NCBI GenBank assembly: GCA_030374765.1
Contig: JARGXX010000088.1
Location: 2,852,001-2,916,000, forward strand
Origin: Agarophyton chilense
Taxonomy: Eukaryota; Rhodophyta; Florideophyceae; Gracilariales; Gracilariaceae
Direction: 5' to 3'
DNA length: 64,000 nucleotides
Shown here: piece after piece, positions 2,412-51,307 of the stretch
Layout: each line of letters starts with the position of its first letter
Position numbering within the stretch: the first letter of the stretch is position 1
The notes under the pieces: model-generated
What the model saw: the letters and a program-made list of their open reading frames with translations, nothing else
The model's database searches: none
What the model was told of the DNA's origin: nothing
Position numbers and translations under genes: made by a program

Positions 2412-2458
2412 TATCCCCCCCCTTAAGACAGGGCGAACACCTCGAAGAGGAAGTCGGC

Positions 2459-4233: not shown

Positions 4234-4565
4234 CCGGAGCTTCCGGTAGAATGTAGGGCGGCGCCCCTAGGGCGCCCTTGCCAGTAGTGAGAAATAAAAG
4301 AAGAGCGTCGCCTTTCCGACGCCCTTTCCCAAGTCCACTTCTTTCTTTCCGGGGTACCGGCCTTCAACCGGGGTTCCGGCGTTGCAGGGAACCAGCCTAG
4401 CTGGGAGTCCCGTGTTTAACGGTGGGCGTTTCGCGCGCGGACCAGGTAACTGTCACGACCACCAACGAGGTTGGGATAGCGTGAGCGGTTGCTTCCTTCC
4501 CCGCGTTGAGGCATGGACGGAGATGGCGCGTGGCGCCATCAGCCATTCCATTCCGTGTTCACGGT

Positions 4566-9456: not shown

Positions 9457-9463
9457 TTTTCCC
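9457..9463 (-). promoter_or_regulatory. Putative -1 frameshift heptamer, element A
   Basis: On the minus strand this reads GGGAAAA in gag phase, just before the gag stop codon, followed by a TCTCCC/GGGAGA hairpin. It is identical in arrangement to elements B and C. Confidence 0.6.
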
Positions 9464-11562: not shown

Positions 11563-11685
11563 TGGCCACACCGTCTCGACGGAAGAATAGAAAGCAAACC
11601 GGTGAGACCGGAGAAAACCCGTTAAACGGAAAACAACCTCAGAGAGGACACAAGCGGTCTTGACTTCTAAGTCGGGAGACCAATT

Positions 11686-12539
11686 TGTAGGACAATTCCC
11701 CCAAGGGGGAAAACCTACGAAGACGTCCGGATCTTCCTCTCACGAGGTAACCGGCGCGGTAGAGCCCTCCCAGGGATCGGCGCGCAATGCCGGGTGTAAA
11801 CCGGAGCCGAACCGTCGCGACGGGCGCAGGGAGGCTGAAAGAAGCCGAGGATATCCGCTGAAGCGGTGCTTGCGTATCCCCTGAGGAGGCAAACCCCACG
11901 AGAGTGGCCAGCACGACAGGTGTCAGTGCGAGCCGCAAGAGCGGGAATTGCCCAATGAAGGGGAGGAAAATGGGAACGGAGGTACGAGGGCGAGGTTGAC
12001 CACGATTCGCAAGAGGGGACTCGGGAATAGCCGGCACTGCCGGGTGTAGCAAACCGTATACACGGGCGGAACCACGAAAGTGGGAATAGATACCCAACAC
12101 ACGAAGGCTGCTTGAACGTCCAAGGGGGTTGGGAAGCCGTGCACCACGGGAAATCCCTCCGTAAGGAGTTGTATATCCGCGCAAGCGGTTCAACCCAGAG
12201 CCAAGATCTGGAAGACCAAGATCACCCTTGTTGGGGAGACTTTACTGGACCGGCGGCCGCGAGGCCGGCGGCCTAAGTACTGTAGTCACCGTAGAATAGA
12301 ATAAATAAAGTCTATCCTAAATAGCTAAATGTCCGTCTAACAAAAGGGGCCGATCTGGCGGCCACGTGTCGCGCGGGCGCTGCGGCCACGTGTATGGTAC
12401 CCGGTCCCGCCGGTGCATCACCGGCGTTCCGGCCATTGCCGTAAATACGGATTACTCCTACTCATAACGAGGTTGCACGCCGGAGGCTCCGGAAAAAACT
12501 TAAGTCCCCAAGAACCTCCCTGGAGGTCGTTGCTCTTCA
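11686..12539 (-). repeat. 5' LTR of Gypsy element A
   Basis: It is an 854-bp terminal repeat with TG...CA ends, matching 1558-2411. It is of the short subtype. Just inside it, in element orientation, is a primer-binding-site candidate beginning TGGTCTCCCGACTTAG, about three bases from the LTR edge. Confidence 0.95.
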
Positions 12540-15364: not shown

Positions 15365-15369
15365 GAGCA

Positions 15370-16223
15370 TGAAGAGCAACGTCCTCAAGGGAGGTTTCTC
15401 GGGACTTTAGTTTTTTCCAGAGCCTCCGGCGTGCAACATCGTTATGAGTAAAAGTAATCCGTTTTCACGGCGATGGCCGGAACGCCGGTGATGCACCGGC
15501 GGGACTGGGTTCCATACACGTGGCCGCAGCGCCCGCGCGACACGTGGCCGCCAGATTGGCCCCTTTTGTTAGACGGACATTTAGCTATTTAGGATAGACT
15601 TTATTTATTCTATTCTACGGTGACTACAGTACTTAGGCCGCCGGCCTCGCGGCCGCCGGTCCAGTAAAGTCTCCCCAACAAGGGTGATCTTGGTCTTCCA
15701 GATCTTGGCTCTGGGTCGAACCGCCTGCGCGGATATACAACTCCTTACGGAGGGATTTCCCGTGGTGCACGGCTTCCCAACCCCCTTGGACGTTCAAGCA
15801 GCCTTCGTGTGTTGGGTATCTATTCCCACTTTCGTGGTTCCGCCCGTGTATACGGTTTGCTACACCCGGCAGTGCCAGCTATTCCCGAGTCCCCTCTTGC
15901 GACTCGTGGTCAACCTCGCCCTCTTACCTCCGTTCCCATTTTCCTCCCCTTCATTGGGCAATTCCCGCTCTTGCGGCTCGCACTGACACCTGTCGTGCTG
16001 GCCACTCTCGTGGGTTTTGCCTCCTCAGGGGATACGCAAGCACCGCTTCAGCGAATATCCTCGGCTTCTTTCAGCCTCCCTGCGCCCGTTGCGACGGTTC
16101 GGCTCCGGTTTACACCCGGCATTGCGCGCCGATCCCTGGGAGGGCTCTACCGCGCCGGTTACCCCGTGAGAGGAAGATCCGGACGTCTTCGTAGGGTTTC
16201 CCCCTTGGGGGCATTGTCCTACA
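15370..16223 (+). repeat. 5' LTR of Gypsy element B
   Basis: An 854-bp LTR of the short subtype. Its 3' (U5) end has the type-1 signature shared with element A: TTCAGCG, GGCTCCGG, GTGAGAGG and GCATTGTCC. The other LTR of the same element differs at all of these sites. Confidence 0.95.
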
Positions 16224-16346
16224 AATTGGTCTCCCGACTTAGAAGTCAAGACCGCTTGTGTCCTCTCTGAGGTTGTTTTCCGTTTAACGGGTTTTCTCCG
16301 GTCTCACCGGTTTGCTTTCTATTCTTCCGTCGAGACGGTGTGGCCA

Positions 16347-18458
16347 ATGCCAAGGAAACCGCCTAGCATGGAGCCTCCTGCAACACGCAGCCGTTCCCGC
16401 CAGAGCTGTGATGCCAGGGGGACTAGTGTTCCACAGGCCCTTGCTCCAACACCGGATTCCCGGGAGATACCGGTCACCGGCACTGAAGATCCGCAGCCCG
16501 ATTCCGAGTTAACGACCGTCGCAACGGTGGTTTCTCCGCCTCCGCGGTTGGTCGACCAAGCGCGGATTGTACGCTTGGAAGAGCAGCTCTGCTCCCTGCA
16601 GGCTGCTCACAATACCCTCTCGAGGAAGTTCACCTCTTTACGAGGAAGCCTCGCTAACCCCCCTCCAAGTGAGTTAGCCGAGGATATCCGCGTATTGCGG
16701 TCGGACGTCGATACACTACTCGAGTGTTTTGGCGCTCCGTCTTCATTCGCAGAAGGTATGGAGAATCGCTTCGAGCGTCTCCGAAGCCGACTTGAGTCGG
16801 TCGAGAGGACGTTAACCTCGCCCGCGAACGCGGCTATACCGGTTGTCTCTCATCGAGAGACACAGCCGCGGAACCGGAAGAGCCGGAAGAACCGGGATTC
16901 TAACCGTAAGCACGGACACCCGTCCGACTCATCATCTGAGTCGGACGGTAAACCGAGTGACTCGGAGAGTTCCGATTCGTCGGTGAGCGATGACCCACAG
17001 GATCGTTATGGGCGCTCTTCCCGCTCAAAGCGGTCCTCTGCCACCTACGGGGCCATCCGGTCGCGCCCCAAGGGTCGGCGACATCCGGGCCTCAAACCCT
17101 TGAAGCCCACCAACCCTCTGTACAGGACACTCCTGTCCTACCGGTATTACCGGCTAGAAGATTCCTCTTTAGGTCGGACACCGCGTGACACGGGTAAAGT
17201 GAAAGACTGCATCAAGCGGATGCAGCTTTCACTTCGTAACCCGTCGTTTACTGGGGATGATCCAATTCTGGTCTTGGATTTCCTACACTGCTTTGTAGCG
17301 GAAGCCGATATACTCGGAATGAACGAAGGACAAGCCTACGTGGCGCTACCCTACTTTCTACGGGGTGTCGCTGAAGATCAGTTTTTGTCGGTCCGGGGCT
17401 CGTCGCGAGCCTCTGAAGGAGGTGTGACCTGCTGGCCCGAGGCCGTGCAGTACCTCCTGCGTTCCTACGCAACCAACTACGCGATACAAGCGGCGATACT
17501 CGCTTTGCGAGACACTCGAGAACGCTCCGGCGAGCTCGAGACCGATTACTCGGTACGTCTGAATAAGGCTTTTCACCGTTGTGGTAATGTATACCCCGCT
17601 GGGGAACGCTGTACGATGTTCATTGATGGCTTGGATCCAGCCATCAAGACTCTTGTCGCCCGTTACAGGGAACAAGAGCCGAAGGTGACGTAGCTTGAAC
17701 TCGTACAGTTTGCCCGCGCAGAAGGAGATGCACTACGTGCACGCAATCCGGGAACCCGGTCGAAGGCCGCTAAAGCATTGCTGTTTGAGTCGGACTCTTC
17801 TTCACCGTCATTTGCGACGGATGGCATCCCCAAACAGGGTTATGACAATATGAATGTCATCCATCACGATGGTTTATCTATTCCGACAACGAAATTACCG
17901 TCTACGACGGATGGCTCGGTTGACTCAACCGCAAGGGACACGGAGAACGGGCAGGCCTTTTATCTTAATGACCGCCGCACTCCAGCCCCCCGTATGCCGT
18001 ACTCGAACGGAATGACACGAAGTCAGCGCCCTGGATGGGTTGGAAACCGGGAACCCGGAAGATACACCGATGCTCGGAATGCCGTACCGCGTTACGCGGG
18101 AGTGACGTTGGTGTGCCACTTGTGCTACCAGCGCGGGCACACCTCCCCGCAATGCCTTTTATCGCTACGCGATATGGCGCGAGTGGTGGATAATTACGAA
18201 GCCCTCTCCCCGCAGGAGAAGGGCTCCGTGCCACTCACGTCATATCTCCGCGCGAAGACGGACTTCCCCAACGCATTGGCTCACACTCCGAATTCTCGGT
18301 ACAAACCGGCTCAGCCGGCACGCGCCGCACCAGCGCCAAACCACGCTGGTGGATCTCAACCCGCTCCTGCGGTAGCTACCGTGCAACGGAATCATGCACT
18401 CGATGCCGAGGAAGTCGGGCCTTCGCCCGACCAGGACCCTGTACAGGGAAAAGAATAG
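16347..18458 (+). pseudogene. gag region of Gypsy element B
   Basis: It is near-identical in layout to element C gag. It has the MPRKPPSMEPP start, a Ser/Asp-rich middle, the capsid-like part, and a C-terminal zinc knuckle of the CX2CX4HX4C type (CHLCYQRGHTSPQC, near 18113-18154). Fossil. Confidence 0.87.
18446..18452 (+). promoter_or_regulatory. Putative -1 frameshift heptamer, element B
   Basis: GGGAAAA sits in gag phase (CAG GGA AAA GAA TAG). The downstream hairpin TCTCCC-CTTT-GGGAGA keeps its stem although the loop differs from CTTC in A and C. Confidence 0.6.
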
Positions 18459-18472
18459 AGGGAGTCTCCCCT

Positions 18473-21127
18473 TTGGGAGAGGCGTCCTCAGAGTTGAGGC
18501 TGACGACGCCCGAGGCGCCAATTCCTCGCTCCCCGGTGAAAATCCTGACAAGGAAGGACACCGCAGACGCGGACTCTAAACACCTCGGTGTTTTGCGTCT
18601 ACCGTGGATACAGATTAGAAATAACCGGATCCCGGATAGAGTCATGGTCATGGCAAAGCGAAACTTTAAAGTTTACTCTGACCTAGGCCTTACTACCAAG
18701 TTCATGGTGCGTTTTCTCACTGTTTTGGATACAGGTACAGAACCGAACTTCGTCGTGGAATCTATCCTACCACCTGCTTTGCAGTCGCAAATCCGCCGTG
18801 GCGTAGCATTAGACGCCGCTGACGCTGGTAACAACCCGTTAGAAACGGTTGGAGTGATCGATTTGGTGGTACGCTTAGGACCCTGCGTCGTGAAGCTGCA
18901 CTTTATTGTCTGTCGGTCACTCCCCGCCCCTCTCATCTTGGGTTGTGATTTTTGCGACCGTTTCGTCGAATCGATTGTACCCGGCTTAAAGCGTGTGGAA
19001 TTGGACGATGGATCCTCTGTTCCCATCGTCCGCCGTCCGCCGAAGGGTGCATCGAAGAAGCATGTTCCTCTTCCTGCTGCACAGGAGTTTCCCGCCGCTT
19101 TTCGCGAGTCTACAAAGCTTCGTGTCGACGAGTCGATTTGCATTCCGCCAAAGTCCCACTCTTGGGTGCGTGTCAGTTCTCGTCAGCACGGTACTCCAAT
19201 CTTTCGACCGATGCCATCACTGTCGAACAGGCATCAACTCGCTTTCGCGGATGGAATGGTTCACATTGAGCCCGACAAGTCGTTTTGTGTATGTGTTTCC
19301 AACTCTGGAGAGAAACACCAGTATCTGGTTAGGAACCAAGTCATTGGAAGAGTTGCTCCTCACCCCATGTCTATCTTTACCCTTCAAGGGGATCGTACCG
19401 GTTCAACCGGAATGGGTCACTCTGAGGAGGGGGATAATCTCGTCGGAGGTCCCCAGTCTACGCTGAACTTATCCACACTTCCGTGTGTGTCGCCACCAGC
19501 ACTACTGGTTAGGTTATCCAATGGTTCTTGGATTGTTGTCATCGACTACCGTCGGTTCTGCACGACTGACGTCGGAAAGATACCACCTGAGTTGGTAAAT
19601 TTCAAAGCCCAGCCATTGCTGGATGGGCTACAAATTTGTTCGGATCATGAGAGTTGCTGGAACTCGTGGCTTTCAGTAATGCCTTCCGCTGTTCAGCGTT
19701 CGATGGCCTGCATACGCCCAAGGCGCAGAGGAGGTCCATTTAACAGAACTCTGGATGCTTCAGCCCCTCGCAACGAGGATGGTTCTCAGAATCCCTCGCA
19801 TATTGCGGAAGTTCCCGTTTCTACGGTAGGGCTAATCTATCCCATCCAGATGGTTGCTTTACCCGCCAATAAGCGATTCCCGCTCTACAACCCACCCGTG
19901 GGACTCTCTGATATACCGATTCAATCGGACGCTGGCCTGAATGGCCTTTCTTCTCTCACGCCACTGCGCGGTGTCTATCCCCGCCAGTTGGGCATTTCTA
20001 CCACTCTCTATGTCGCTCCGTCTAAGGAGGGGGAGGGGACCCGCTCAATCGCGGAAGCATCGCCGTTGCAACGGAAGTTTAATCGGACACCCCGGGCAAG
20101 GCCCCCGAGCGGGCAACCGGCATCGTCGCCTGACGCCAATCCGCTCCCGCGGGACGCGGGGGTCAACCCGACCGCCACGCAACCCCGCAAGGGGGACCAA
20201 GGCGCTCGAAGACCCGAAGCCGTAAAGCGAGACCCTACGGACGCTCCGCATCGCGTGGAAGCAACTGAGGGCTCCCCGCACATTCGCGGTCGCACACCGA
20301 GCGTTTCGGTCGATATCGGTACTCCGGTGGGCGCTGCGCAAGCAGGTCTAGCGAGCCACTCCGTTGAGAGCGGTACGAACCCCATGGGAGAAAAGGGGCG
20401 CGACGACAAGTCGAAAACCGCCTCCCTTGCCTAAAAATCGGAGCCAACCGTCCGCGACGGTCCGACCATCCGTCCTCAAGGTCACATGACCCGGGCGGGA
20501 GATCGGACCAATGGGCACCCGGCATCCCGGTCATTGGCTGACAGCCACCCCGCGGAGGCGGATCGCCGGGACTGTGAACCACTCACCGCCCACGGCGCAC
20601 TGCACGGCGGAAACTGCCCACCAATGGGAACGCCGCATGCTGCAAATCAAGCGGAGGCCTCCGGCGAACCGTCACCAAGACGGAAGGACCCCCGCAAAAT
20701 CGCGGTAAGAGCGGACTTCAGGGAAGCCCCTACCGCCCAGCGGAAACACAACCCGGCCGCGCCGGCAACTTCCGCGAAGCGGTACGGCAGCTTTGGCGAC
20801 CCGGCAACAACCGCAGAGCGGAATGACAAACCGGGTGACCTGGAACAGGCGACGACAAGCCCAGCACCACGCGGCGCTGAGGCTCGGGTCACCACCACCC
20901 GGCAAGGCCGGCAAGTTTACGTGCAGGAGTACGTCCTCGACCGAATCGTCGGACATAGCTACGATTTGCAAGGGGTGCTCCAGTACCGGACCCGCTGGTA
21001 CGGATACGGGCCGGAGTGGGACACCCCGGAGCCCATCGAACACCTCCCGCACTCCGCGGTAATGCGATACCACCGCCTTGCGGGGACCACACTCCCAGCC
21101 ACGCTGGTAAACGCCCAAGAGGGATAA
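18473..21127 (+). pseudogene. Protease, linker and chromodomain region of element B
   Basis: It contains a protease-type motif (LTVLDTGTEPNF) and the downstream ILGCDFCDRFV phrase of the Gypsy protease, then unassigned sequence. After that come the Pro/Arg-rich linker and the chromodomain (YVQEYVLDRIVGHSYD). The stretch from about 18640 to 19990 is much more diverged from A and C than its two sides, which points to recombination between lineages. No RT or integrase motif is visible. Fossil. Confidence 0.8.
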
Positions 21128-21459
21128 ACCGTGAACACGGAATGGAATGGCTGATGGCGCCACGCGGCATCTCCGTCCATGCCCCAACGCGGGGAAGGAA
21201 GCAACCGCTCACGCTATCCCAACGTCGTTGGTTCTCGTGCCAGTTACCTGGCCCGCGCGCGAAGCGCCCACCGTTAAACACGGAACTCCCAGCTAGGTTG
21301 GTTCCCTGCAACGCCGGAACCCCGATTGAAGGCCGGTACCCCGGAAAGAAAGAAGTGGACTGGGGAAAGGGCGTCGGAAAGGCGACCCTCTTCTTTTATT
21401 TCTCACTACTGGCAAGGGCGCCCTAGTGGCGCCGCCCTACATTCTACCGGAAGCTCCGG

Positions 21460-23235
21460 TCATTCCTCCGCACGAAGTGGACCCCCGCCCAGGCGGTTGG
21501 CTAAGGCATCCCGCATGGCGGCCACGTCACCCGAGATCTCGGAAGGGCGAAGCCCCACCTCCCGAAGGAAGCGCGCGATGACCTCGCCCCGCTCCGCGCC
21601 AGCGGCAGTTGCGGGCGGGCCCGCCACCGATGGAGTCGGATAGGAATCCGTTCGCACGGCATCAGCAGCCCCGGATGGAGCCGCACCACCGTATTCAACG
21701 GACTCCTCACCGGCCTCGCCGGAGTTGTCATCCTCCGTCGGAGCGTAACCCGGATCCTCCGGTTCGTTGTCGACCATCCGGTCACCATCCGCATAGCCGC
21801 GGTAATAGTCGCTCGAGTCGACATACCCTCGCGGGTGGTCGGCCGGGACTTCATGCGGCTCATGCCGGTTGGCTTCTGCTTCCTCGCGGCTGATCTCGTG
21901 GTAATCCCAGGGGTCGAAGTAGATGAAATCCCCCGCTAGCGCGGTATTCCTCCCGAATCCGGGGCCAGACCCGCGACGCGGTTGAATGCGCTGGGAGTTC
22001 TCCAGCGGGACCTCATCCCACTGGACCCCCTCCATAAAGTCGAGGAGGGCCAGCATCTCTTCTTCGTTTGCCTCGCCCCCGAGGGGGATGCGCATGTCCA
22101 AACGGCGGATCGCAGCCCGCACACGCGGTGGCACGTACCACAATCGGTATTGGTCGTACGCCTCAGCGAGGATAAAAGCCGCAGTGCGGACGGCCCATTC
22201 GCTTACCACGACGGACCACCACCCCGACTGGGGATCGTTCAAGAACGACGACCCTACATAGGTGAAGACTGGGGGCAGCTCAATGAAGCAAGCCCAGCAC
22301 GCCTCCAAGGAGGACCACCAGTCTGGGAGACTGACGTACCGACCACGTCGGTGAGCAGGCGCGATGCGCTCAATCTACGTGTTCTGGTACGGTACGAAAT
22401 ACCCGGTCCGGGCCCGCCAACGCCGCTCATCGCGGATGAAGTTCTGAAGGAAGTTCGAGCGCGACTGCCACGGTTGGGAGCGGAACTCTGCCCGAAGAAT
22501 TGGTCGTGCCCAGCAAAGGGCTTCTTGCCGAGCGATCGGTGTGCCCCTCCAAGCGAGGGTTTCCAATCCGTTAAGACGGCCACAGTACGACATTTCCCCG
22601 CGAGTGCGGTAAAGGTGGACGTCGAATTCGAACTTTGGCGGTATCGGGAACTCGAAAGGCGCCCGATGGTGCCTGAGATAAGCGATCCGCACAAGCGCGG
22701 CCTGAGCCTCCGCAGAGGATTCACCGCGTCGGCGGAGTATGTGGTGTACCGGGATGGCGATGCGATTACGCCAATCCCAGGACATGGTCACCACGCCGGG
22801 CAGGTCGCCCGGGAGCATCTCCGAATTATCGGTGTAGGAATGGATCAAATCCTCGTCGCGGACAGCCAATGGGTGAAACCAAGGCGCATACCGCAACATC
22901 GCGGAGCCATGCCGAGTTCTCGGATTTGCACCCACAAGGGCGTCGTAGGTCGGCCACTGCGGTGGGTCCGCCTGTCCGCGAAAGCGGGCGCCAATACGGC
23001 GGTCTTCGTACGCGAGGTTGGTAACATCCCCAGGGTGGGGCGCGGACCGGAAGCCGGTGGAACCGCCAAGGGCGGGAGTCGCGGATGTGTTATGACGGTC
23101 GGGGTTGGACATGGTGCGTGTTGGTGTGCTGTGGTTGGAATGAGATGCGGAGAGCGTGCGTGGGATCCTTGGTGAAGGTGTGTTGGTTTCCGGAGACCCG
23201 GTGTCGGACGCGCTCTTATCATGACGAGCTGCCAT
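21460..23235 (-). pseudogene. Antisense ORF of Gypsy element B
   Basis: It occupies the same position and span as in A and C, opposite to gag-pol. It has the MAARHDKSASD start, the Trp/Tyr-rich core and an acidic C-terminal part ending LGGGPLRAEE. Its presence in this reduced copy, which lacks recognisable RT and integrase, is notable. Fossil. Confidence 0.7.
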
Positions 23236-23282
23236 GCCGACTTCCTCTTCGAGGTGTTCGCCCTGTCTTAAGGCGGGGGATA

Positions 23283-24146
23283 TTAAGAGCAACGTCCTCC
23301 AGGGAGGTTTTTGCGGACTTAAGTTTTTTCCGTAGCCTCCGGCGTGCAACCTCGTTATGAGTAGGAGTAATCCGTTTCACGGCGATGGCCGGAACGCCGG
23401 TGATGCACCGGCGGGACCGGGTGCCATACACGTGGCCGCAGCGCCCGCGCGACACGTGGCCGCCAGATTGGCCCCTTTTGTTAGACGGACATTTAGCTAT
23501 TTAGGATAGACTTTATTTATTCTATTCTACGGTGACTACAGTACTTAGGCCGCCGGCCTCGCGGCCGCCGGTCCAGTAAAGTCTCCCCAACAAGGGTGAT
23601 CTTGGTCTTCCAGATCTTGGCTCTGGGTCGAACCGCCTGCGCGGATATACAACTCCTTACGGAGGGATTTCCCGTGGTGCACGGCTTCCCAACCCCCTTG
23701 GACGTTCAAGCAGCCTTCGTGTGTTGGGTATCTATTCCCACTTTCGTGGTTCCGCCCGTGTATACGGTTTGCTACACCCGGCAGTGCCAGCTATTCCCGA
23801 GTCCCCTCTTGCGACTCGTGGTCAACCTCGCCCTCCTGCCTCCGTTCCCATTTTCCTTCCCTTTTCCTCCCCTTCATTGGGCAATTCCCGCTCTTGCGGC
23901 TCGCACTGACACCTGTCGTGCTGGCCACTCTCGTGGGTTTTGCCTTCTCAGAGGATACGCAAGCACCGGTTCGGCGGATAGTCTCGGCTTCTTTCAGCCT
24001 CCCTGCGCCCGTCGCGACGGTTCGGCCCCGGCTTACACCCGGCATTGCGCGCCGATCCCTGGGAGGGCTCTACCGCGCCGGTTACCTCGTGAAAGGAAGA
24101 TCCGGACGTCTTCGTAGGTTTTCCCCCTTGGGGGTATTGTCCTACA
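23283..24146 (+). repeat. 3' LTR of Gypsy element B
   Basis: An 864-bp LTR of the long subtype, carrying the extra pyrimidine-rich bases near 23850. Its U5 end has the type-2 signature: TTCGGCGG, GGCCCCGG, GTGAAAGG and GTATTGTCC. It therefore does not match its own 5' LTR but does match the 3' LTR of element C. Confidence 0.95.
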
Positions 24147-38713: not shown

Positions 38714-39161
38714 TGTTTTGCAAACCACGATTCGTTGTAAGCGGTGTTGAACGCGGCGGTGCAGCGGAATCGGTAGACGGCGGCGGTGCGGCGGAATTGA
38801 TGTAAACGGCGTAGAAAGGCGGCGCGAAAGCAAAACGAACGAGAAGTATGGTGACGGTAATGAAGTTGTTGTACTGAAGGAGGTTGAGAGTTGTGCAGTC
38901 GAATGATGTCCGACAAGAGAAGTAGTTCTCTTGTTCTGAGCTCTTTGCGGCTGGGAGCCTGGTGTGGGTCTCTACCGCGCCAAGTAAGCAGCTTCATTCT
39001 AATCCAACGTCTCCCAGATTAGAGTACTATGTCAAATTAAAGATTCAATTTCATGTCTATCTAACGTTGGCTACTTGGAATTATAGTGCAACCTACGCAG
39101 CTATCTACAATAGATTGCGGGTTGCAATTCTACATTCTCCTCTCGCGAGACGTCTTCAACA
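38714..39161 (-). repeat. 5' LTR of the Copia element
   Basis: About 448 bp with TGTT...AACA ends, matching 32607-33069. The long shared core includes CATTCTCCTCTCGCGAGA near its right end. Confidence 0.88.
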
Positions 39162-39909: not shown

Positions 39910-40773
39910 TGAAGAGCAACGTCCTCCAGGGAGGTTTTTGGGGACTTAAGTTTTTTCCATAGCCTCCGGCGTGCAACCTCGTTATGAGTAGGAGTAATCC
40001 GTTTCACGGCGATGGCCGGAACGCCGGTGATGCACCGGCGGGACCGGGTGCCATACACGTGGCCGCAGCGCCCGCGCGACACGTGGCCGCCAGATTGGCC
40101 CCTTTTGTTAGACGGACATTTAGCTATTTAGGATAGTCTTTATTTATTCTATTCTACGGTGACTACAGTACTTAGGCCGCCGGCCTCGCGGCCGCCGGTC
40201 CAGTAAAGTCTCCCCAACAAGGGTGATCTTGGTCTTCCAGATCTTGGCTCTGGGTCGAACCGCCTGCGCGGATATACAACTCCTTACGGAGGGATTTCCC
40301 GTGGTGCACGGCTTCCCAACCCCCTTGGACGTTCAAGCAGCCTTCGAGTGTTGGGTATCTATTCTCACTTTCGTGGTTCCGCCCGTGTATACGGTTTGCT
40401 ACACCCGGCAGTGCCGGCTATTCCCGAGTCCCCTCTTGCGACTCGTGGTCAACCTAGCCCTCTTGCCTCCGTTCCCATTTTCCTTCCCTTTTCCTCCCCT
40501 TCATTGGGCAATTCCCGCTCTTGCGGCTCGCCCTGACACCTGTCGTGCTTGCCACTCTCGTGGGTTTTGCCTCCTCAGAGGATACGCAAGCACCGCTTCA
40601 GCGGATATCCTCGGCTTCTTTCAGCCTCCCTGCGCCCGTCGCGACGGTTCGGCTCCGGCTTACACCCGGCATTGCGCGCCGATCCCTGGGAGGGCTCTAC
40701 CGCGCCGGTTACCTCGTGAGAGGAAGATCCGGACGTCTTCGTAGGTTTTCCCCCTTGGGGGCATTGTCCTACA
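39910..40773 (+). repeat. 5' LTR of Gypsy element C
   Basis: An 864-bp LTR that is itself patchy. Its middle has the long-subtype extra bases and the CAGAGGATACGC variant of type 2, whereas its U5 end has the type-1 signature (TTCAGCGG, GGCTCCGG, GTGAGAGG, GCATTGTCC). It holds many micro-hairpins, for example at 40260-40271, 40280-40291 and 40299-40311. Confidence 0.95.
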
Positions 40774-40776
40774 AAT

Positions 40777-40792
40777 TGGTCTCCCGACTTAG
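40777..40792 (+). promoter_or_regulatory. Primer-binding-site candidate, element C
   Basis: TGGTCTCCCGACTTAG begins three bases inside the 5' LTR and is shared by all three copies. A TGG start fits pairing with a tRNA 3' CCA end; I could not name the tRNA. Confidence 0.55.
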
Positions 40793-40896
40793 AAGTCAAG
40801 ACTGCTTGTGTCCTCTCTGAGGTTGTTTTCCGTTTAACGGGTTTTCTCCGGTCTCACCGGCTTGCTTTCTATTCTCCCGTCGAGACGGTGTGGCCA

Positions 40897-43008
40897 ATGC
40901 CAAGGAAACCGCCTAGCATGGAGCCTCCTGCAACACGCAGCCGTTCCCGCCAAAGCGGTGATGCCAGGGGCACTGATGTTCCACAGGCCCTGGCTCCAAC
41001 ACCCCATTCCCGGGAGATACCGGTCACCGGCACTGAAGACCCGCAGCCCGATTCCGGGTTAACGACCGTCGCAACGGTGGTTTCTCCGCCTCCGCGGTTG
41101 GTCGACCAAGCGCGGATTGTACGCTTGGAAGAGCAGCTCCGCTCCTTGCGGGCTGCTCACAATACCCTCTCGAGGGAGTTCACCTCTTTACGAGGAAGCC
41201 TCGCTAACCCCCCTCCAAGTGAGTTAGCCGAGGATATCCGCGTATTGCGGTCGGACGTCAATACACTACTCGAGTGTTTTGGCGCTCCGTCTTCCTTCGC
41301 AGAAGGTCTGGTGAATCGCTTCGAGCGTCTCCGAAGCCGACTTGAGTCGGTCGAGAGGACGTTAACCTCGCCCGCGAACGCGGCTAGACCGGTTGTCTCT
41401 CATCGAGAGACACAGCCGCGGAACCGGAAGAGCCGGAAGAACCGGGATTCTAACCGTAAGCACGGACACCCGTCCGACTGATCATCTGAGTCGGACGGTA
41501 AACCGAGTGACTCGGAGAGTTCCGATTCGTCGGTGAGCGATGACCCACAGGATCGTTATGGGCGCTCTTCCCGCTCAAAGCGGTCCTCTGCCACCTACGG
41601 GGCCATCCGGTCGCGCCCCAAGGGTCGGCGACATCCGGGCCTCAAACCCTTGAAGCCCACCAACCCTCTGTACAGGACACTCCTGTCCTACCGGTATTAC
41701 CGGCTAGAAGATTCCTCTTTAGGTCGGACACCGCGTGACACGGGTAAAGTGAAAGACTGCATCAAGCGGATGCAGCTTTCACTTCGTAACCAGTCGTTTA
41801 CTGGGGATGATCCAATTCTGGTCTTGGATTTCCTCCACCGCTTTGTAGCGGAAGCCGATATACTCGGAATGAACGAAGGACAAGCCTACGTGGCGCTACC
41901 CTACTTTCTACGGGGTGTCGCTGAAGATCAGTTTTTGTCGGTCCAGGGCTCGTCGCGAGCCTCTGAAGGAGGTGTGACCTGCTGGCCCGAGGCAGTGCAG
42001 TACCTCCTGCGTTCCTACGCAAACAAATCCGCGATACAAGCGGCAATACTCGCTTTGCGAGACGCTCGACAACGCTCCGGCGAGCTCGAGACCGATTACT
42101 CGGTACGCCTGAATAAGACTTTCCACCGTTGTGGTAATGTATACCCCGCTGGGGAACGCTGCACGATGTTCATTGATGGCTTGGATCCAGCCATCAAGAC
42201 TCTTGTCGCCCGTTACAGGGAACAAGAGCCGAAGGTGACGTACCTTGAACTCGTACAGTTTGCCCGCGCAGCGGGAGATGCACTACGTGCACGCAATCCG
42301 GGAACCCGGTCGAAGGCCGCTAAAGCATTGCTGTTTGAGTCGGACTCTTCTTCACCGTCATTTGCGACGGATGGCATCCCCAAACAGGGTTATGACAATA
42401 TGAATGTCATCCATCACGATGGTTTATCTATTCCAACAACGGAATTACCGTCTACGACGGATGGCTCGGTTGACTCAACCGCAAGGGACACGGAGAACGG
42501 GCAGGTCTTTTATCTTAATGACCGCCGCACTCCGGCCCCCCGTATGCCGTACTCGAACGGAATGACACGAATTCAGCGCCCTGGATGGGTTGGAAACCGG
42601 GAACCCGGAAGATACACCGATGCTTGGAATGCCGTACCGCGTTACGCGGGAGTGACGTTGGTGTGCCACTTGTGCTACGAGCGCGGGCACACCTCCCCGC
42701 ATTGCCTTTTATCGCTACGCGATATGGCGCGGGTGGTGGATAATTACGAAGCCCTCTCCCCGCAGGAGAAGGGCTCCGTGCCACTCACGTCATATCTCCG
42801 CGCGAAGACGGACTTCCCCAACGCATTGGCTCACACTCCGAATTCTCGGTACAAACCGGCTCAGCCGGCACGCGCCGCACCAGCGCCAAACCACGCTGGT
42901 GGATCTCAATCCGCTCCTGCGGTAGCTACCGTGCAACGGAATCATGCACTCGTTGCCGAGGAAGTCGGGCCTTCGCCCGACCAGGACCCTGTACAGGGAA
43001 AAGAATAG
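40897..43008 (+). pseudogene. gag region of Gypsy element C
   Basis: It starts MPRKPPSMEPPATRSRSRQS. A coiled-coil-like stretch (RIVRLEEQLRSLRAAHNTLS) is followed by an Arg/Ser/Asp-rich segment, a capsid-like part, and a zinc knuckle of the CX2CX4HX4C type (CHLCYERGHTSPHC). It ends PVQGKE at 43008. Gag packages the RNA into virus-like particles. Fossil part. Confidence 0.88.
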
Positions 43009-43030
43009 AGGGAGTCTCCCCTTCGGGAGA
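42996..43030 (+). promoter_or_regulatory. Putative -1 frameshift signal at gag/pol, element C
   Basis: GGGAAAA (42996-43002) sits in gag phase as CAG GGA AAA GAA TAG, a textbook X XXY YYZ slip site. A hairpin TCTCCC-CTTC-GGGAGA follows at 43015-43030. Pol lies in the -1 frame, and that frame is open across the junction. Confidence 0.65.
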
Positions 43031-46000
43031 GGCGTCCTCAGAGTTGAGGCTGACGACGCCCGAGGCGCCGATGCCTCGCTCCCCGGTGAAAATCCTGACA
43101 AGGAAGGACACCGCAGACGCGGACTCTAAACACCTCGGTGTTTTGCGTCGACCGTGGATACGGATTAGAAATAACCGGATCCCGGATAGAGTCTTGGTAA
43201 TGGCCAAGCGTAACTACATGGTTTACCCTGACCTTGGTCTGCACACGCAGTTTATGGTGAGATATCTCACTGTCCTGGATACAGGTGCTGGGCCGAACTT
43301 TATTGTGGAATCGGTTTTACCCCCGCCATTGCGGTCACTCATCCGTTCTGAAACGGTACCCGACGTCTCAGACGCCAATAACAACCCGTTGAAAACGGTT
43401 GGTGTGATCGACCTGGTCGTCAGGCTAGGGCGGATGGTGGTTAAACTAACTTTTATTGTGTGCCGCTCGCTGGCCGCGCCAGTTATACTGGGATGTGACT
43501 TCTGCGACAGGTTTGTCGACGCCATCCGCCCACGCCTTAAGCAGGTGGAACTTGAGGACGGATCGACCGTCCCCATTGTTCGTCAACCGCTGAAGCGGGC
43601 ATCGAAGAAACACGTTCCTCTACCTGCTGCGCAGGAACCCACACCGGCGAAACGAGATTCTACGAAGCTACGCGTTGCCTCGTCAGTCACCATACCCCCG
43701 GAGAGCCAGGTTATGGTTTCAGTCAATTCCCGTCAACATGGTCTTCGGGTTGTTCAGCCCTTGCCCTCGTTGTACGAGAAATTTCAGTTAACCGTTGCGA
43801 ACGGAATCGTGCAAGTCACGCCGAATTCCCCTTTCAGGGTGTTGGTTGCCAATCTGGGAAATGCTCCCCAGACGCTGGCAAAGAACCAAGTCATTGGGTC
43901 TGTGACGCCGCACCCGCTCGCGATGCTCCCTACAAAGGTGACGGCTGCCGAAGTACTCGGAATAACTCCCTCTACCGAGGATGGTCTCTCGGTATCCGGT
44001 GCAGAAACCTCCGGGGAGGCACAGCAGTTGGCGCTCGATAAAACCGTCAAGACGGATGCATTTCCGACCTCGTCGGTTCCCACACCTGACACTAGGGCAC
44101 AGCCTACGAGCTACGATAAGATAGACCCGATCAAGGCCCTCGAGGACCTGGACCTGAGTCATGTACCGGTCTCACACCGGGACCGCTTACGCGGAATGCT
44201 ACGCGAGTTTACCACAATGTGGGACGGCTCACTGGGTGAGATCAATACAACCGAACATCGGATAGACTTGCTACCGGACGCACGTCCGGTTGCACAACCC
44301 CCTTACAGGGCGGGACCGAAAGCTCGGGAGGAGGAAGAATTTCAGGTGGACAAGATGCTCCGTGCTGGAGTCATCGAGCCCGCCCAATCTCCTTGGGCTT
44401 CACCGGTGGTGCTGGCCCTCAAAGCTGACGGCACGTGGCGGTTTTGCGTTGACTACCGCCGCCTCAATGCCGTCACCGTGAGGGACACCTACCCGATTCC
44501 GCGCATGGACGAGTGTATAGACTCGCTCGGGGACGCTACCGTGTTTACGGCTCTGGATGCTAACTGGGGCTACTGGCATGTCCCAGTCCGGGAAGAGGAC
44601 CGAGACAAAACCGAGTTTGTTTGCCACTCGGGTTCCTACCGCTTCAAGCGGATGCCGTTTGGTTTAACCAATGCACCGGCCACCTTTCAAAGGGCAATAG
44701 ACATACTGATGTCGCGTTTCAAGTGGTGCACGTGCCTTGTCTACTTGGACGACATCATTGTCTTTTCCAGAAACCTGGACGATCACCTGACCCACGCGCG
44801 GGACGTGATGACCGTACTGCGAGATGCAGGAATAACCCTCAAGTTGAGGAAGTGCGAGTTCTTCACCGACACGGTGAAGTATCTCGGGCATGTCATCCGT
44901 CCAGGACGGTTAATGATCGAACAAGGTCGTATCAAGTCCCTCTGCGAGGCGAAGGAGCCCCGTACTCAAACGGAGCTCCGCTCCTTTTTAGGTCTGGTCA
45001 ACGTCTATCGACGGTTTATACCGAGTTTCTCGGATATCGCCGCTCCGCTAAACGCGCGCTACTGCGGAAGGGCCAGACACCGAAGCTTGCGCCATTTACC
45101 ACCGATCAGTCGGAATCTTTTCGCTCCTTGATTAAGGCAGTTACGACAGCTCCCATCCTATCCTTGCCCAAACCTGGGCTTCCTTACTCCTTCGACACCG
45201 ACGCCAGCGACCACCAGGTGGGCTGCGCACTGTTCCAAACCACCCCCGAGGGGGAACGCAAACCAATTGGCTATTGGTCCCGCACGCTGAACGTCCACGA
45301 GCGCAACTACTCGGTGTCCGAGAAGGAGTGCCTCGCAGTGGTCTGGGCGCTATCCACTCTGCGCCCATACCTCATGGGCGTTCATTTCACCGTATGCACG
45401 GACCATGCCTCGTTGCGGTGGCTGCTGAACATCGCAGATCCTTCTGGCCGCTTAATGCGGTGGCGCCTCCGCTTAGCGGAATTCGACTTCGAGGTCGTCT
45501 ACAAGAAGGGTGTCCAGAACACCCAAGCAGACGCACTCTCTCGATTACCTACGACAGGTGAAGCACTTGCCGACCCGGAGGTCGACGAGATCCCGTGCTT
45601 TACCTTGGAAGGGGAAACACCGACGGAGTCGGATCGGCCAGAACCCGGGGAAGACACCATGGAAATGGATGAGCTACTCGCAGCGCGCGAGAATGAAAAA
45701 CCCGTACCCGGAACCTTTGTACCCATCTCCACCGAGGAGATGATCCGAGAACAGTTCGGTGACCCGTTCTGCACGCGCATACGGGCCCGCCTAAACGGTG
45801 GAGAGGACCTCCCGTTCGAGGTAAACGACATCGGATACCTCGTCCGGACGGTGGACCACCGATCCCAGATCGTGGTCCCTCACACCCTGCAAACCAGGGT
45901 GCTCCACCTCTCACACTACCCGACCCTCGGGGGACACTCCGGTGGGAGAAAACTTTATCTAACCCTGCGAAGGGACTTTTATTGGCCCGCTATGGCGGTC

Positions 46001-48289
46001 GATTGCTACGCTACGGTGCAGTTCTGCACCCAATGCGCAAAGAACCGGGCGAAACTCCGGAAGCACTCCAAACGGATGAAGCTTTTCCCCGCAAGGGCGC
46101 CCCTCGAGTTTGTCGCAATCGACATTCTCGGGCCTCTACTCAAGACGCGCAAGGGAAACAAGTTCCTCTTGGATATCACTGACCGCTTTCCGAAGCTGGT
46201 GCGCACCGTACCTTTACGGAAAATCACCGCTTTCACGGTTGCGAACGCCTTCGTTACGCACTGGGCGTTCGTTTATGGCCCTCCGATAGAGGTTCTATCC
46301 GATAACGGTAAGCAGTTCGCCTCTAAGTTCTTCCAGGACGTCTGCCGCATCCTCGACGTCAAGAGCCTGTTTACTACCACCTACCACCCGCAAAAAAACG
46401 GGCAGGTGGAACGCTTCAACCGCACCCTACTCGCGTCGCTACGCTCCTACGTATCCGATCACCCAATGACGTGGGACATTTATTCTGATGCTATCACCTA
46501 CGCCTACAACACGCAGGTTCACCGGACAACCGGTCTGACTCCCTTCGAGCTTATGCTCTCCAGGACACCCCTGCCAGTGGCGGTCGAACCCCAACACAGG
46601 GTCACCTCTTTCCCATCCGTGGGTCAATACCGCCTCAAGTGAAAGAACTGGCTTACCAAGCTCGTACCGGTCGCCCGGAAGTCCATGGAACGTGCCCAGG
46701 CCGCCTACAAGCGGGATTTTGATAACCGCTTACGCGGACCACTACCGGCACCGCCCAAGCCGGGAACTTACGTGTTCGTTCGCCGGGAGTACTACAACCC
46801 CCGGACCGACAAGCGTCACAAGCTCTCGCCTGTCGCTGAAGGTCCGTTCCGGGTGGTGTCCTCCCTCCCCGGCACCGTTGTGGTGGACAAGAACGGCTAC
46901 CACGAACGTCTTTCACAAGACCGCATCGTAGCCGCCCCACCGCCGCAGGCGGAAAACGCATCAGCCCCCGTCGAAACGGCCTCGGATACCACGGGTACAA
47001 CGGTGGGACCACGCCCCGCCGTGGTACCGCACCCCTCACGGGGTCCCTCCGATATACCGACTTTATCGGAACCACCGGCAATGCCGGAAACACCTGGCCC
47101 TCGCGGCCAGCTACCCTTACGGGCGCCGCGCAGCGGTATTTATACCCGCCATGCGGTTAGCCCACCATCACCCGTCGCTCCGTCTAAGAAGGGGGAGGGG
47201 ACCCGCTCAATCGCGGAAGCATCGCCGTCGCAACGGAGGTTTAACCGGACACCCCGGGCAAGGGCCCCGAGCAGGCAACCGGCATCGTCGCCGGACGCCA
47301 ATCCGCTCCCGCGGGACGCGGCAGTCAACCCGACCGCCACGCAACCCCGCAAGGGGAACCAAGGCGCTCGAAGACCCGAAGCCGGGAAGCGAGACCCTAC
47401 GGACGCTCGGCATCGCGTGGAAGCAACTGAGGGCTCCCCGCACATTCGCGGTCGCACACCGAGCGTTTCGGTCGATACCGGTACTCCGGCGGGCGCTGCG
47501 CAAGCAGGTCTAGCGAGCCACTCCGTTGAGAACGGTACGAACCCCATGGGGGAAAAGGGGCGCGACGACAAGTCGAAAACCGCCTCCCTTGCCGAACAAT
47601 CGGAGCCAACCGTCCGCGACGGTCCGGCCACCCGTCCTCAAGGTCACGTGACCCGGGCGGGAGATCGGACCAATGGGCACCCGGCATCCCGGTCATTGGC
47701 TGACAGCCACCCCGCGGAGGCGAATCGCCGGGACGGTGAACCACTCACCGCCCACGGCGCACCGCACAGCGGAAAGTGCCCACCAATGGGAACGCCGCAT
47801 GCCGCAAATCAAGCGGAGGCCTCCGGCGAACCGTCACCAAGAGGAAAGGACCCCCGCAAACTCGCGGTAAGAGCGGACTTCAGGGAAGCCCCTACCGCCC
47901 AGCGGAAACACAACCCGGCCACGCCGGCAACTTCCGCGAAGCGGTACGGCAGCCCCGGCAATCCGGCAACAACCGCAGAGCGGAATGACAAACCGGGTGA
48001 CCCGAAACAGGCGACGACGAGCCCAGCACCACGCGGCGCTGAGGCTCGGGTCACCACCACCCGGCAAGGCCGGCATGTTTACGTGCAGGAGTACGTCCTC
48101 GACCGAATCGTCGGACATAGCTACGATGAGCACGGGGTGCTCCAGTACCGGACCCGCTGGTACGGATACGGGCCGGAGTGGGACACCCCGGAGCCCATCG
48201 AGCACCTCCCGCGCTCTGCGGTAATGCGATACCACCGCCTTGCGGGGACCGCACTCCCAGCCACGCTGGTAAACGCCCAAGAGGGATAA
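43009..48289 (+). pseudogene. pol region of Gypsy element C
   Basis: Domains in order are protease (DTGAGPNF near 43280), reverse transcriptase (FCVDYRRLNAVTVRDTYPIP; YLDDIIVFSRN near 44740), RNase H (TDASDHQVGCAL near 45200), integrase zinc-binding HHCC part (HYPTLGGHSGG to CTQCAKNR), integrase core (VAIDILGPL, VLSDNGKQF, QVERFNRTLL), a low-complexity linker of over 300 residues from about 46930, and a chromodomain at about 48075-48240 (YVQEYVLDRIVGHSYDEHG, RTRWYGYGPEWDTPEPIEHL). Chromodomains direct chromoviruses to modified histones. Fossil with few breaks. Confidence 0.94.
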
Positions 48290-48621
48290 ACCGTGAACAC
48301 GGAATGGAATGGCTGATGGCGCCACGCGCCATCTCCGTCCATGCCCCAACGCGGGGAAGGAAGCAACCGCTCACGCTATCCCAACCTCGTTGGTGGTCGT
48401 GCCAGTTACCTGGTCCGCGCGCGAAGCGCCCACCGTTAAACACGGAACTCCCAGCTAGGCTGGTTCCCTGCAACGCCGGACCCCCGGTTGAAGGCCGGTA
48501 CCCCGGAAAGAAAGAAGTGAAATTGGGAAAGGGCGTCGGAAAGGCGATCCTCTTCTTTTATTTCTCACTACTGGCAAGGGCGCCCTAGTGGCGCCGCCCT
48601 ACATTCTACCGGAAGCTCCGG

Positions 48622-50396
48622 TCATTCCTCCGCACGAGGTGGACCCCCGCCCAGGCGGTGGGCTAAGGCATCCGGCATGGCGGCCACATCACCCGAGATC
48701 TCGGAAGGGCGAAGCCCCACCTCCCGAAGGAAGCGCGCGATGACCTCGCCCCGCTCCGCGCCAGCGACGGTTGCGGGCGGGCCCGCCACCGATGGAGTCG
48801 GATAGGAATCCGTTCGCACGGCATCAGCAGCCCCGGATGGAGCCCACCACCGTATTCAACGGACTCCTCACCGGCCTCGCCGGACCCGTCATCCTCCATC
48901 GGAGCGTAACCCGGATCCTCCGGTTCGTTGTCGACCATCGGGTCACCATCCGCATAGTCGCGGTAATAGTCGCTCGAGTCGACATACCCTCGCGGGTGGT
49001 CGGCCGGGACTTCACGCGGCGCATGCCGGTTGGCTTCCGCTTCCTCGCGGCTGATCTCGTGGTAATCCCAGGGGTCGAAGTAGATGAAATCCCCCGCTAG
49101 CGCGGTATTCCTCCCGAATCCGGGGCCAGACCCGCGACGCGGTTGAATGCGTTGGGAGTTCTCCAGCGGGACCTCATCCCACTGGACCCCCTCCACAAAG
49201 TCGAGGAGGGCCAGCATCTCTTCTTCGTTCGCCTCGCCCCCGAGGGGGATGCGCATATCCAAACGGCGGATCGCAGCCCGCACACGCGGTGGCACGTACC
49301 ACAATCGGTATTGGTCGTAGGCCTCAGCGAGAATAAAAGCCGCAGTGCGGACGGCCCATTCGCTTACCACGACGGACCACCACCCCGACTGGGGATCGTT
49401 CAAGAACGACGACCCTACATAGGTGAATACTGGGGGCAGCTCAATGAAGCAAACCCAGCACGCCTCCAAGGAGGACCACCAGTCTGGGAGACTGACGTAC
49501 CGACCACGTCGGTGAGCAGGCGCGATGCGCTCAATCTCCGTGTTCTGGTACGGTACGAAATACCCGGTCCGGGCCCGCCAACGCCGCTCATCGCGGATGA
49601 AGTTCTGAAGGAAGTTCGAGCGCGACTGCCGCGGTTGGTAGCGCAACTCTGCCCGAAGAATGGGTCGTACCCAGCAAAGGGCTTCTTGCCGAGCGATCGG
49701 TGTACCCCTCCAAGCGAGGATTTCCAATCCGTTGAGACGGTCGCAGTACGACATTTCCCCGCGAGTGCGGTAAAGGTGGACGTCGAATTCGACCTCTGGC
49801 GGTATCGGGAACTCGAAAGGCGCCCGATGGTGCCTGAGATAAGCGATCCGCACAAGCGCGGCCTGAGCCTCCGCAGAGGATTCACCGCGTCGGCGGAGTA
49901 TGTGGTGTACCGGGATGGCGATACGATTACGCCAATCCCAGGACATGGTCACCACGCCGGGCAGGTCGCCCGGGAGCATCTCCGAATTATCGGTGTAGGA
50001 CTGGATCAAATCCTCGTCGCGGACAGCCAATGGGTGAAACCAAGGCGCATACCGCAACATCGCGGAGCCATGCCGAGTTCTCGGATTAGCACCCACAAGG
50101 GCGTCGTAGGTCGGCCACTGCGGTGGGTCCGCCTGTCCGCGAAAGCGGGCGCCAATACGGCGGTTTTCGTACGCGAGGTTGGTAACATCCCCAGGGTAGG
50201 GCGCGGACCGGAAGCCGGTGGAACCGCCAAGGGCGGGAGTCGCGGATGTGTTATGACGGTCGGGGTTGGACATGGTGCGTGTTGGTGTGCTGTGGTTGGA
50301 ATCAGATGCGGAGAGCGTGCGTGGGATCCTTGGTGAAGGTGTGTTGGTTTCCGGAGACCCGACGTCGGACGCGCTCTTATCATGACGAGCTGCCAT
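48622..50396 (-). pseudogene. Antisense ORF of Gypsy element C
   Basis: It begins MAARHDKSASDVGSPE at 50396, just inside the 3' LTR, and runs toward the chromodomain end on the opposite strand to gag-pol. The core is rich in W, Y and R (MSWDWRNRIAIPVHHI, NFIRDERRWRARTGYFVPY, YDQYRLWYVPP). The C-terminal third is acidic (DNEPEDPGYAPMEDD). I recognise no domain and no catalytic motif. An antisense transcript from the 3' LTR would be needed to express it. Fossil part. Confidence 0.7.
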
Positions 50397-50430
50397 GCCG
50401 ACTTCCTCTTCGAGGTGTTCGCCCTGTCTT

Positions 50431-50443
50431 AAGGGGGGGGATA
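50431..50443 (+). promoter_or_regulatory. Polypurine tract of element C
   Basis: AAGGGGGGGGATA lies immediately before the 3' LTR start TGAAGAGC, as expected for the plus-strand primer of an LTR element. Confidence 0.75.
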
Positions 50444-51307
50444 TGAAGAGCAACGTCCTCCAGGGAGGTTTTTGGGGACTTAAGTTTTTTCCGTAGCCTC
50501 CGGCGTGCAACCTCGTTATGAGTAGGAGTAATCCGTTTCACGGCGATGGCCGGAACGCCGGTGATGCACCGGCGGGACCGGGTGCCATACACGTGGCCGC
50601 AGCGCCCGCGCGACACGTGGCCGCCAGATTGGCCCCTTTTGTTAGACGGACATTTAGCTATTTAGGATAGACTTTATTTATTCTATTCTACAGTGACTAC
50701 AGTACTTAGGCCGCCGGCCTCGCGGCCGCCGGTCCAGTAAAGTCTCCCCAACAAGGGTGATCTTGGTCTTCCAGATCTTGGCTCTGGGTCGAACCGCCTG
50801 CGCGGATATACAACTCCTTACGGAGGGATTTCCCGTGGTGCACGGCTTCCCAACCCCCTTGGACGTTCAAGCAGCCTTCGTGTGTTGGGCATCTATTCCC
50901 ACTTTCGTGGTTCCGCCCGTGTATACGGTTTGCTACACCCGACAGTGCCGGCTATTCCCGAGTCCCCTCTTGCGACTCGTGGTCAACCTAGCCCTCTTGC
51001 CTCCGTTCCCATTTTCCTTCCCTTTTCCTCCCCTTCATTGGGCAATTCCCGCTCTTGCGGCTCGCACTGACACCTGTCGTGCTGGACACTTTCGTGGGTT
51101 TTGCCTCCTCAGAGGATACGCAGGCACCGCTTCGGCGGATATTCTCGGCTTCTTTCAGCCTCCCTGCGCCCGTCGCGACGGTTCGGCCCCGGCTTACACC
51201 CGGCATTGCGCGCCGATCCCTGGGAGGGCTCTACCGCGCCGGTTACCTCGTGAAAGGAAGATCCGGACGTCTTCGTAGGTTTTCCCCCGTGGGGGTATTA
51301 TCCTACA
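50444..51307 (+). repeat. 3' LTR of Gypsy element C
   Basis: An 864-bp LTR of the long subtype with the type-2 U5 end (TTCGGCGG, GGCCCCGG, GTGAAAGG, GTATTATCC), like the 3' LTR of element B and unlike its own 5' LTR. Confidence 0.95.

Follow-up and report, generated by a model that had tools for sequence, protein, structure and literature searches.

The window analyzed here is a 64,000-nucleotide (nt) stretch of Agarophyton chilense DNA (contig JARGXX010000088.1, positions 2,852,001 to 2,916,000), in which three retrotransposons belong to one Gypsy family, with aligned parts 94 to 98% identical. Element A (1558..12539, minus strand) is bounded by long terminal repeats (LTRs) at 1558-2411 and 11686-12539 (98.2% identical), element B (15370..24146, plus strand) by LTRs at 15369-16223 and 23282-24146 (95.3%), and element C (39910..51307, plus strand) by LTRs at 39910-40773 and 50444-51307 (97.8%). 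Their layout is that of Ty3/Gypsy elements, with LTR pairs around gag and pol and the domain order RT-RNaseH-IN. Profile matches show that the family encodes reverse transcriptase (RT), RNase H, and integrase (IN), while its gag and chromodomain matches are weak. The pol of element A (5352..8930, minus strand) is open for 1,192 amino acids and contains all three enzymes; Pfam gave no Chromo match in this open reading frame (ORF). A Chromo match lies instead at the C terminus of a separate ORF of element C (46685..48289, plus strand), under Pfam's cut-off (E = 1.4e-4; 22.2 bits versus 25.1), and PF00385 is annotated in 9 of 16 aligned relatives. The 412-amino-acid gag ORF of C (41770..43008, plus strand) has a Retrotrans_gag match, also under Pfam's cut-off, and contains CHLCYERGHTSPHC, which we take to be compatible with a CCHC zinc knuckle.

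Close to its 3' LTR, element C carries an antisense ORF of 577 amino acids (48663..50396, minus strand). It has a counterpart in a second Gypsy family of the genome, family D (L042:2900-4303, minus strand), to which it is 39% identical across 350 amino acids. It returned no Pfam matches, and its relatives are hypothetical proteins named from Gracilariopsis chorda and Gracilaria domingensis, presumably both red algae of the Gracilariales. Elements of the A/B/C and D types look ambisense. A further LTR element at 32607-39159 (LTRs 88.7% identical) had been labeled Copia in an initial annotation; one of its four ORFs checked has an integrase-core match, under Pfam's cut-off, and its Copia identity is unconfirmed. 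Rfam models had no matches in the window at the gathering score.

The initial annotation drew attention to 40877..41097, where it listed six perfect units of a 4-bp stem around a 4-nt loop (4-4-4). All six occur exactly in place (40877, 40891, 40947, 41047, 41066, and 41086), the last three spaced 7 and 8 nt apart. Its estimate that chance would yield one such unit per ~220 bases is sound, as a pairing chance of 0.258 gives ~1 in 225. Element C as a whole contains 156, 170, and 159 perfect 4-bp stems at loops of 3, 4, and 5 nt, or 485 in total, where the stem counts at loops 12 to 30 (~51 per loop length) predict ~153, an excess of 3.2-fold. Elements A (455 versus ~147) and B (345 versus ~119) are like C. 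Loops of 1 to 5 nt had been proposed; in this family the excess lies at loops 3 to 5 and is weaker at 6. The proposed bias toward CC...GG stems holds for the A/B/C family (211 versus 22 expected in C). Units are spread fairly uniformly along C, at 8 to 20 per 500 nt, and the codon phase of their starts is about uniform.

The excess in A and C outlasted dinucleotide, codon, and codon+context shuffles, the last of which preserves the protein, codon use, and codon-boundary context. Under the codon+context shuffle, seven ORFs of A and C gave z scores of 3.2 to 9.7 at loops 3 to 5: the gag ORF of C (62 versus 25.6; z = 8.2), pol of A (135 versus 60.9; z = 9.7), the RT ORF of C (80 versus 30.8; z = 8.6), the integrase ORF (44 versus 23.9; z = 4.7), the chromodomain ORF of C (70 versus 36.8; z = 5.7), the antisense ORF of C (72 versus 33.0; z = 7.2), and a 194-amino-acid ORF holding most of 40877..41097 (31 versus 19.8; z = 3.2). 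The 5' LTR of C was compared with dinucleotide shuffles only (33 versus 10.5; z = 6.1). The texture had been described for gag, the LTR, pol, the linker, and the antisense ORF; the LTR and the gag, pol, integrase, chromodomain, and antisense ORFs all carry it. Non-hairpin controls in C were lower, at 1.23-fold for direct repeats, 1.26-fold for mirror repeats, and 1.70-fold for complement repeats. Host genes had been said to lack the texture, and they do: three host ORFs, as well as one ORF of the "Copia" element, gave no excess under the three kinds of shuffle (z = -1.6 to +2.3), and a 12.5-kb host stretch and host loci L043 and L046 are without the texture. The "Copia" element, of which the same had been said, is indeed without the texture as a whole (101 versus 87 expected; 1.16-fold), whatever its identity.

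Although the annotation described the texture for elements A to C, which are indeed rich in it, it is not restricted to a single family. We surveyed the 79.8-Mb genome for further families, finding F1, F3, F4, F5, and F6 by a search with a marine relative, and four additional Gypsy families proved strongly hairpin-rich: D (30 loci, ~68% nucleotide identity in pol), at 2.3- to 2.8-fold, and F3 (2 loci), F4 (2 loci), and F6 (3 loci), at 3.1- to 3.6-fold. In the strong families, inverted repeats reach 2.1- to 3.5-fold, compared with 0.7- to 1.3-fold for direct and mirror repeats and 1.3- to 2.1-fold for complement repeats (2.14-fold in F6). F1 (6 loci) and F5 (3 loci) reach 1.3- to 1.6-fold, a weak signal that may not reflect hairpins, because the complement control reaches the inverted count (1.65 versus 1.58 in F1; 1.50 versus 1.43 in F5). 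Another Gypsy element of GC content 0.43 to 0.44 is without the texture or nearly so in its two copies (L039, 1.26-fold; L040, 1.11-fold). The A/B/C family and the strong further families carry tiny perfect inverted repeats at about three times the chance level and with stem lengths that vary among families, a pattern suggestive of a structural code.

Hairpin counts outside this genome covered 15 of 20 loci (L047 to L061, leaving out L062 to L066). L047 and L054 gave 1.32-fold and twelve others 0.69- to 1.16-fold, while L056, a contig that codes for a relative at 54% and was assigned to a Robiginitomaculum metagenome-assembled genome (MAG), gave 2.18-fold with loops of 1 and 3 nt preferred. 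L056 is Gypsy-like and crowded with odd palindromes that have 1- or 3-nt centers; its presence in a bacterial MAG is probably eukaryotic contamination. Two scans of viral contigs found no relative. In a FastTree phylogeny, from which L056 is absent, A/C, F4, F6, and D group together as a clade with support of 1.0; F3 branches deeper, and F1 plus F5 and L047 fall outside.

The geometry of the units differs among families. Maximal 4-4-4 stems dominate in A/C (105 versus 26 expected) and are enriched in D (53 versus 17.6), where loops of 1 and 2 nt are also somewhat raised (37 and 26 versus ~23 and ~18). F4 and F6 combine 5-3-5 stems (19 versus 1.6 and 17 versus 1.3, respectively) with 4-4-4 stems (20 versus 7.8 and 30 versus 6.8), and F3 favors 6-3-6 and 6-4-6 stems (9 and 8 versus 0.6 each). 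Units are thus mostly 12 nt long in A/B/C and D, 13 nt in F4/F6, and 15 to 16 nt in F3. Read from the outside, stem bases are C-C-G in A/C, (T/C)-C-C in D, and G-rich in F3. In C, maximal 3-bp stems are at 0.8- to 1.3-fold, so that the excess starts at 4 bp and covers spans of ~11 to 14 nt. Extension of 4-bp stems outward, for which chance is 0.258, occurs in 26/132 cases at loop 4, 20/89 at loop 5, and 54/122 at loop 3. Since loop 3 favors longer stems (5-3-5, 5.5-fold; 4-3-4, 2.4-fold), the size limit in C is strict only at loops 4 and 5. A protein of each family that recognizes its units would account for such family-dependent sizes better than stability alone.

Pairing within the stems of C is all-or-none. 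CC..GG frames there are enriched 9.45-fold when both inner pairs match and otherwise stand at 0.9- to 1.2-fold. With the third pair matched, a fourth pair of A-T (7.3-fold) or T-A (15.5-fold) is strongly enriched, compared with 1.0-fold for G-U and 2.0-fold for U-G. Pooled over eight tests that overlap in part and cover six sequences, fully Watson-Crick stems numbered 762 versus 207.2 expected (3.7-fold), stems with one interior G-U pair 216 versus 196.8 (1.1-fold), those with interior A-C 265 versus 237.6, and those with other mismatches 925 versus 874.8. One-mismatch stems generally lie at ~0.9- to 1.3-fold. Within bins of predicted RNA energy of -4, -3, and -2 kcal/mol in C, Watson-Crick stems are at 2.4- to 4.5-fold and one-G-U stems at 0.9- to 1.3-fold: a single G-U pair removes the excess even at equal predicted stability, and the stems are fully Watson-Crick. 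F3 is an exception with small counts (G-U, 7 versus 3.4; A-C, 13 versus 4.8), L056 is raised for A-C, and D is less clean, with mismatched CC..GG frames also up (1.6- to 2.9-fold).

We also compared strands and spacing. Windowed folding energy of C against shuffles is about equally low on the sense (z = -1.13) and antisense (z = -1.22) strands, and raw folding energy is lower on the antisense strand; z is -1.1 to -1.2 in A and C and only -0.2 to -0.3 in D. Strand asymmetries are weak: flanks favor AA over TT (143:77 versus 46:35 in controls), loops in D favor C over G (214:137), and loops show no A-versus-T bias in any of the six sequences. As G-U pairs make no contribution and there is no preference for the sense strand, ordinary folding of one RNA strand explains the texture poorly. 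Enrichment in C climbs with the number of G-C pairs (1.6-, 2.6-, 3.5-, and 3.9-fold for one to four). It also tends upward with stability predicted by a DNA thermodynamic model at loops 3 to 5; as the relation is not simple, we do not count it as proof of single-stranded DNA (ssDNA). Gaps of 0 to 5 nt between units in C are depleted (45 versus 74) and gaps of 6 to 8 nt doubled (63 versus 30). CC..GG units in C have A/T-rich flanks and loops and a modal center-to-center distance of 18 to 20 nt, about the length of a small RNA. Gaps of 5 to 8 nt in F6 and 7 to 11 nt in F3 appear favored, on small numbers, and D has no visible spacing rule. We found no loop motif common to the families.

Third codon positions of A and D are only 38% identical, so one lineage or both acquired the texture afresh. 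Most hairpins of the two families occupy different positions: of the 92 hairpins of A in gapless alignment, D shares 13 (11 with identical stems), compared with 7 of 124 at control loops. Within families, singletons in D (dN/dS, ~0.98) account for 29 hairpin gains where 36.6 are expected and for 124 losses where 106 are expected, and those in A/B/C for 15 gains (16.6 expected), against a null that is rough, because control loops 9 to 11 in D give 30 gains versus 45 expected. Inserted copies simply decay, and their singletons erode hairpins at an approximately random rate. Stems in D are hit by shared polymorphisms at the expected frequency (27 losses versus 27.6 expected) and those in A/B/C only slightly less often than expected (10 versus 15.7). 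Hairpins are affected by similar shares of fixed differences (37/105) and singletons (57/162).

A subfamily comparison comes from element B, whose stretch 18642-20011 (plus strand) has copies at 94 to 98% and 88 to 89% identity elsewhere. Divergence from C starts near 18642, with 134 differences in the 445 nt of 18642..19086, where B-type sequence has 7.1 hairpins at loops 3 to 5 (1.5-fold) and A/C-type sequence 17.2 (4.8-fold). Placing the differences at random would leave 5.3 ± 2.4 hairpins, close to the B-type number; in the B-to-C direction, 17 hairpins are gained, compared with 4.5 ± 2.3 under such placement. Hairpin-level counts (+2/-1 for A/C, +1/-7 for B-type, and 10 unclear) and losses on the A/C branch (1/49 or 2/39) are confounded by the hairpin-poor B-type; as the B-type has few hairpins for the A/C branch to have lost, the low A/C losses are no sign of selection, and the comparison cannot part gains from losses or selection from writing. 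Element B is a recombinant whose middle derives from another subfamily, the 445-nt stretch being almost without loop 3 to 5 excess and the sequence on its left hairpin-rich. L089 to L092 look recombinant too, with the stretch A/C-type up to ~787 nt and B-type beyond.

Our tentative interpretation is that the units are recognized: family-specific hairpins on single-stranded element nucleic acid may bind an element protein such as Gag. The units would fold while the element is single-stranded, as cDNA or as sense and antisense RNA, and would offer many copies of a candidate binding site to a nucleic-acid-binding protein of the element, Gag with its putative CCHC knuckle being the likeliest. Each family could thereby coat, package, or protect its own nucleic acid, and copies competing for the protein would acquire more units wherever the coding sequence permits. 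Judging by the size classes, the spacing, and the free choice of stem sequence, what is recognized would be a hairpin of fixed length formed by single-stranded nucleic acid, with a protein as the presumed reader. Watson-Crick-only pairing fits ssDNA, in which G-T pairs are poor, or RNA of both strands; the latter is plausible because the antisense gene is conserved between C and D. The all-or-none inner pairs, the gap rule, the A/T-rich flanks, the even density, the renewal between A and D, and the CCHC-like gag motif speak for such recognition, which we nevertheless regard as doubtful on several counts. Families share no loop motif, D lacks a spacing rule, geometries overlap (F4 and F6 are also rich in 4-4-4), and Watson-Crick-only stems are, in our judgment, unusual for RNA-binding sites. 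Nor do the polymorphism, fixed-difference, and A/C versus B-type comparisons demonstrate selection. More broadly, this red-algal Gypsy clade may possess a size-coded and nearly strand-symmetric hairpin code, in which each family's own stem length (4, 5, or 6 Watson-Crick pairs), base preference, and spacing constitute a mark of self-identity on single-stranded element nucleic acid, which the family's protein would read or its reverse transcriptase impose; we put this forward with some hesitation.

The second of these options, in which the reverse transcriptase (or repair) rarely copies short inverted stretches of a stem length set by the enzyme and the hairpins are by-products, is a less probable account of the texture. 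It would explain the Watson-Crick-only stems, the free stem sequence, the family-specific lengths, and the positional turnover, and none of the tests run shows selection on hairpins. It does not predict the minimum gap and A/T-rich flanks, and sits uneasily with the absence of enrichment for maximal 3-bp and one-mismatch stems. The initial annotation had raised template switching that writes short inverted copies. On inserted elements the singleton gains noted above speak against such writing, although they are insensitive to rare writing per cycle, and copying of this kind during reverse transcription is compatible with them.

Rather unlikely, in our estimation, is that the hairpins act as armor against RNA interference (RNAi), hiding targets in sense and antisense RNA or making small guide RNAs fold on themselves; only Watson-Crick pairs would serve on both strands. 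The pairing rule, with no clear difference between G-U and A-C, agrees with such a role, as do four Piwi-domain matches in the genome, the antisense gene conserved between families C and D, and the modal 18- to 20-nt center spacing in C. Yet the "Copia" element and the low-GC Gypsy copies L039 and L040 manage nearly or wholly without the texture, nor would armor of this kind lead one to expect stem lengths and base preferences that vary by family.

Selection for stable sense-RNA structure alone, on a genome scale, is improbable. Folding energy in C below that of shuffles, enrichment rising with G-C pairs, and the weak sense-strand asymmetries in flanks and D loops would suit it, as would two post hoc observations in C, namely, G-U slightly up in the 5' leader (61 versus 43.9) and A-C up in the antisense-ORF region (70 versus 51.6). 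Against it stand the G-U results in six sequences, including those at equal energy in C, the equally low antisense z score and lower antisense raw energy, and the near-zero energy z scores of D. Packaging or double-stranded-RNA-based regulation, both suggested by the initial annotation, are compatible with the data, though hardly as ordinary one-strand RNA folding, given the G-U null and the lack of a sense preference. About as improbable as selection on sense-RNA structure are double-stranded DNA sites for a protein dimer binding dyad-symmetric half-sites along the element: the near strand symmetry agrees with these, as does the D excess at loops 1 and 2, where an RNA hairpin would keep only three pairs, but the inner pairs in C must match each other, which fixed half-sites would not need. 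A base- or codon-composition artifact, to which the GC richness of the elements, the raised complement controls in C and F6, and the F1/F5 complement counts might point, is hardly credible and was rejected for the strong families, whose inverted counts far exceed all controls, with an excess in A and C that outlasts three kinds of shuffle and is limited to short loops.

Compared with known systems, the A/B/C elements share with the chromodomain Ty3/Gypsy elements (chromoviruses) the LTRs and the order of gag, RT, RNase H, integrase, and a chromodomain-like ORF, and differ in the micro-hairpins throughout and the conserved antisense gene near the 3' LTR, neither of which is, to our knowledge, a chromovirus trait. 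RNA viruses with genome-scale ordered RNA structure (GORS) likewise show an excess of structure across coding sequence measured against shuffles. GORS concerns genomic-strand structure in which G-U pairs count, whereas here G-U stands at 1.1-fold versus 3.7-fold for Watson-Crick, the antisense strand scores equally, and stem lengths are family dependent. Dispersed packaging signals, as described in PMC6281560, are stem-loops scattered in large number through a genome, for which capsid-protein binding is proposed on the basis of one recognition motif that all share and that in MS2 lies in the apical loop; A/C have a CC..GG base, no fixed loop motif, and units in the hundreds. Retand, a plant Gypsy element with a long internal region for which antisense ORFs are mentioned (PMC11963269), belongs to a non-chromovirus plant lineage. 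Among titles and abstract openings, no literature on such a texture in LTR retrotransposons was found.

Several hundred perfect mini-hairpins embedded in protein-coding DNA amount to a heavy second layer of pattern, which recurs here in families with saturated third codon positions. If recognition is true, a structural size code could separate the nucleic acid of each family from that of the others and of the host, and selective packaging would become computationally testable in other genomes. If RNAi armor is true, a counterdefense would be legible in raw DNA; if writing by reverse transcriptase is true, it would be a templated mode of mutation. Each of the three would be new for LTR retrotransposons as far as we know, and a size-coded mark, if real, would represent a genome-wide kind of structural information that differs from the known packaging signals and from ordered RNA structure.

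Finally, two observations concern other elements of this genome. Four 8-kb host loci were placed arbitrarily: two are without the texture, one has an A/C-family copy, and the fourth, L044, contains a further LTR element (L044:688-6302; repeats at 828-1394 and 5761-6302, 89% identical) with partial texture, 1.9- to 2.5-fold across ~2.5 kb. F3-family pol copies on contigs C5 and C78 of G000 recur every ~9.7 kb, in the manner of a tandem array.
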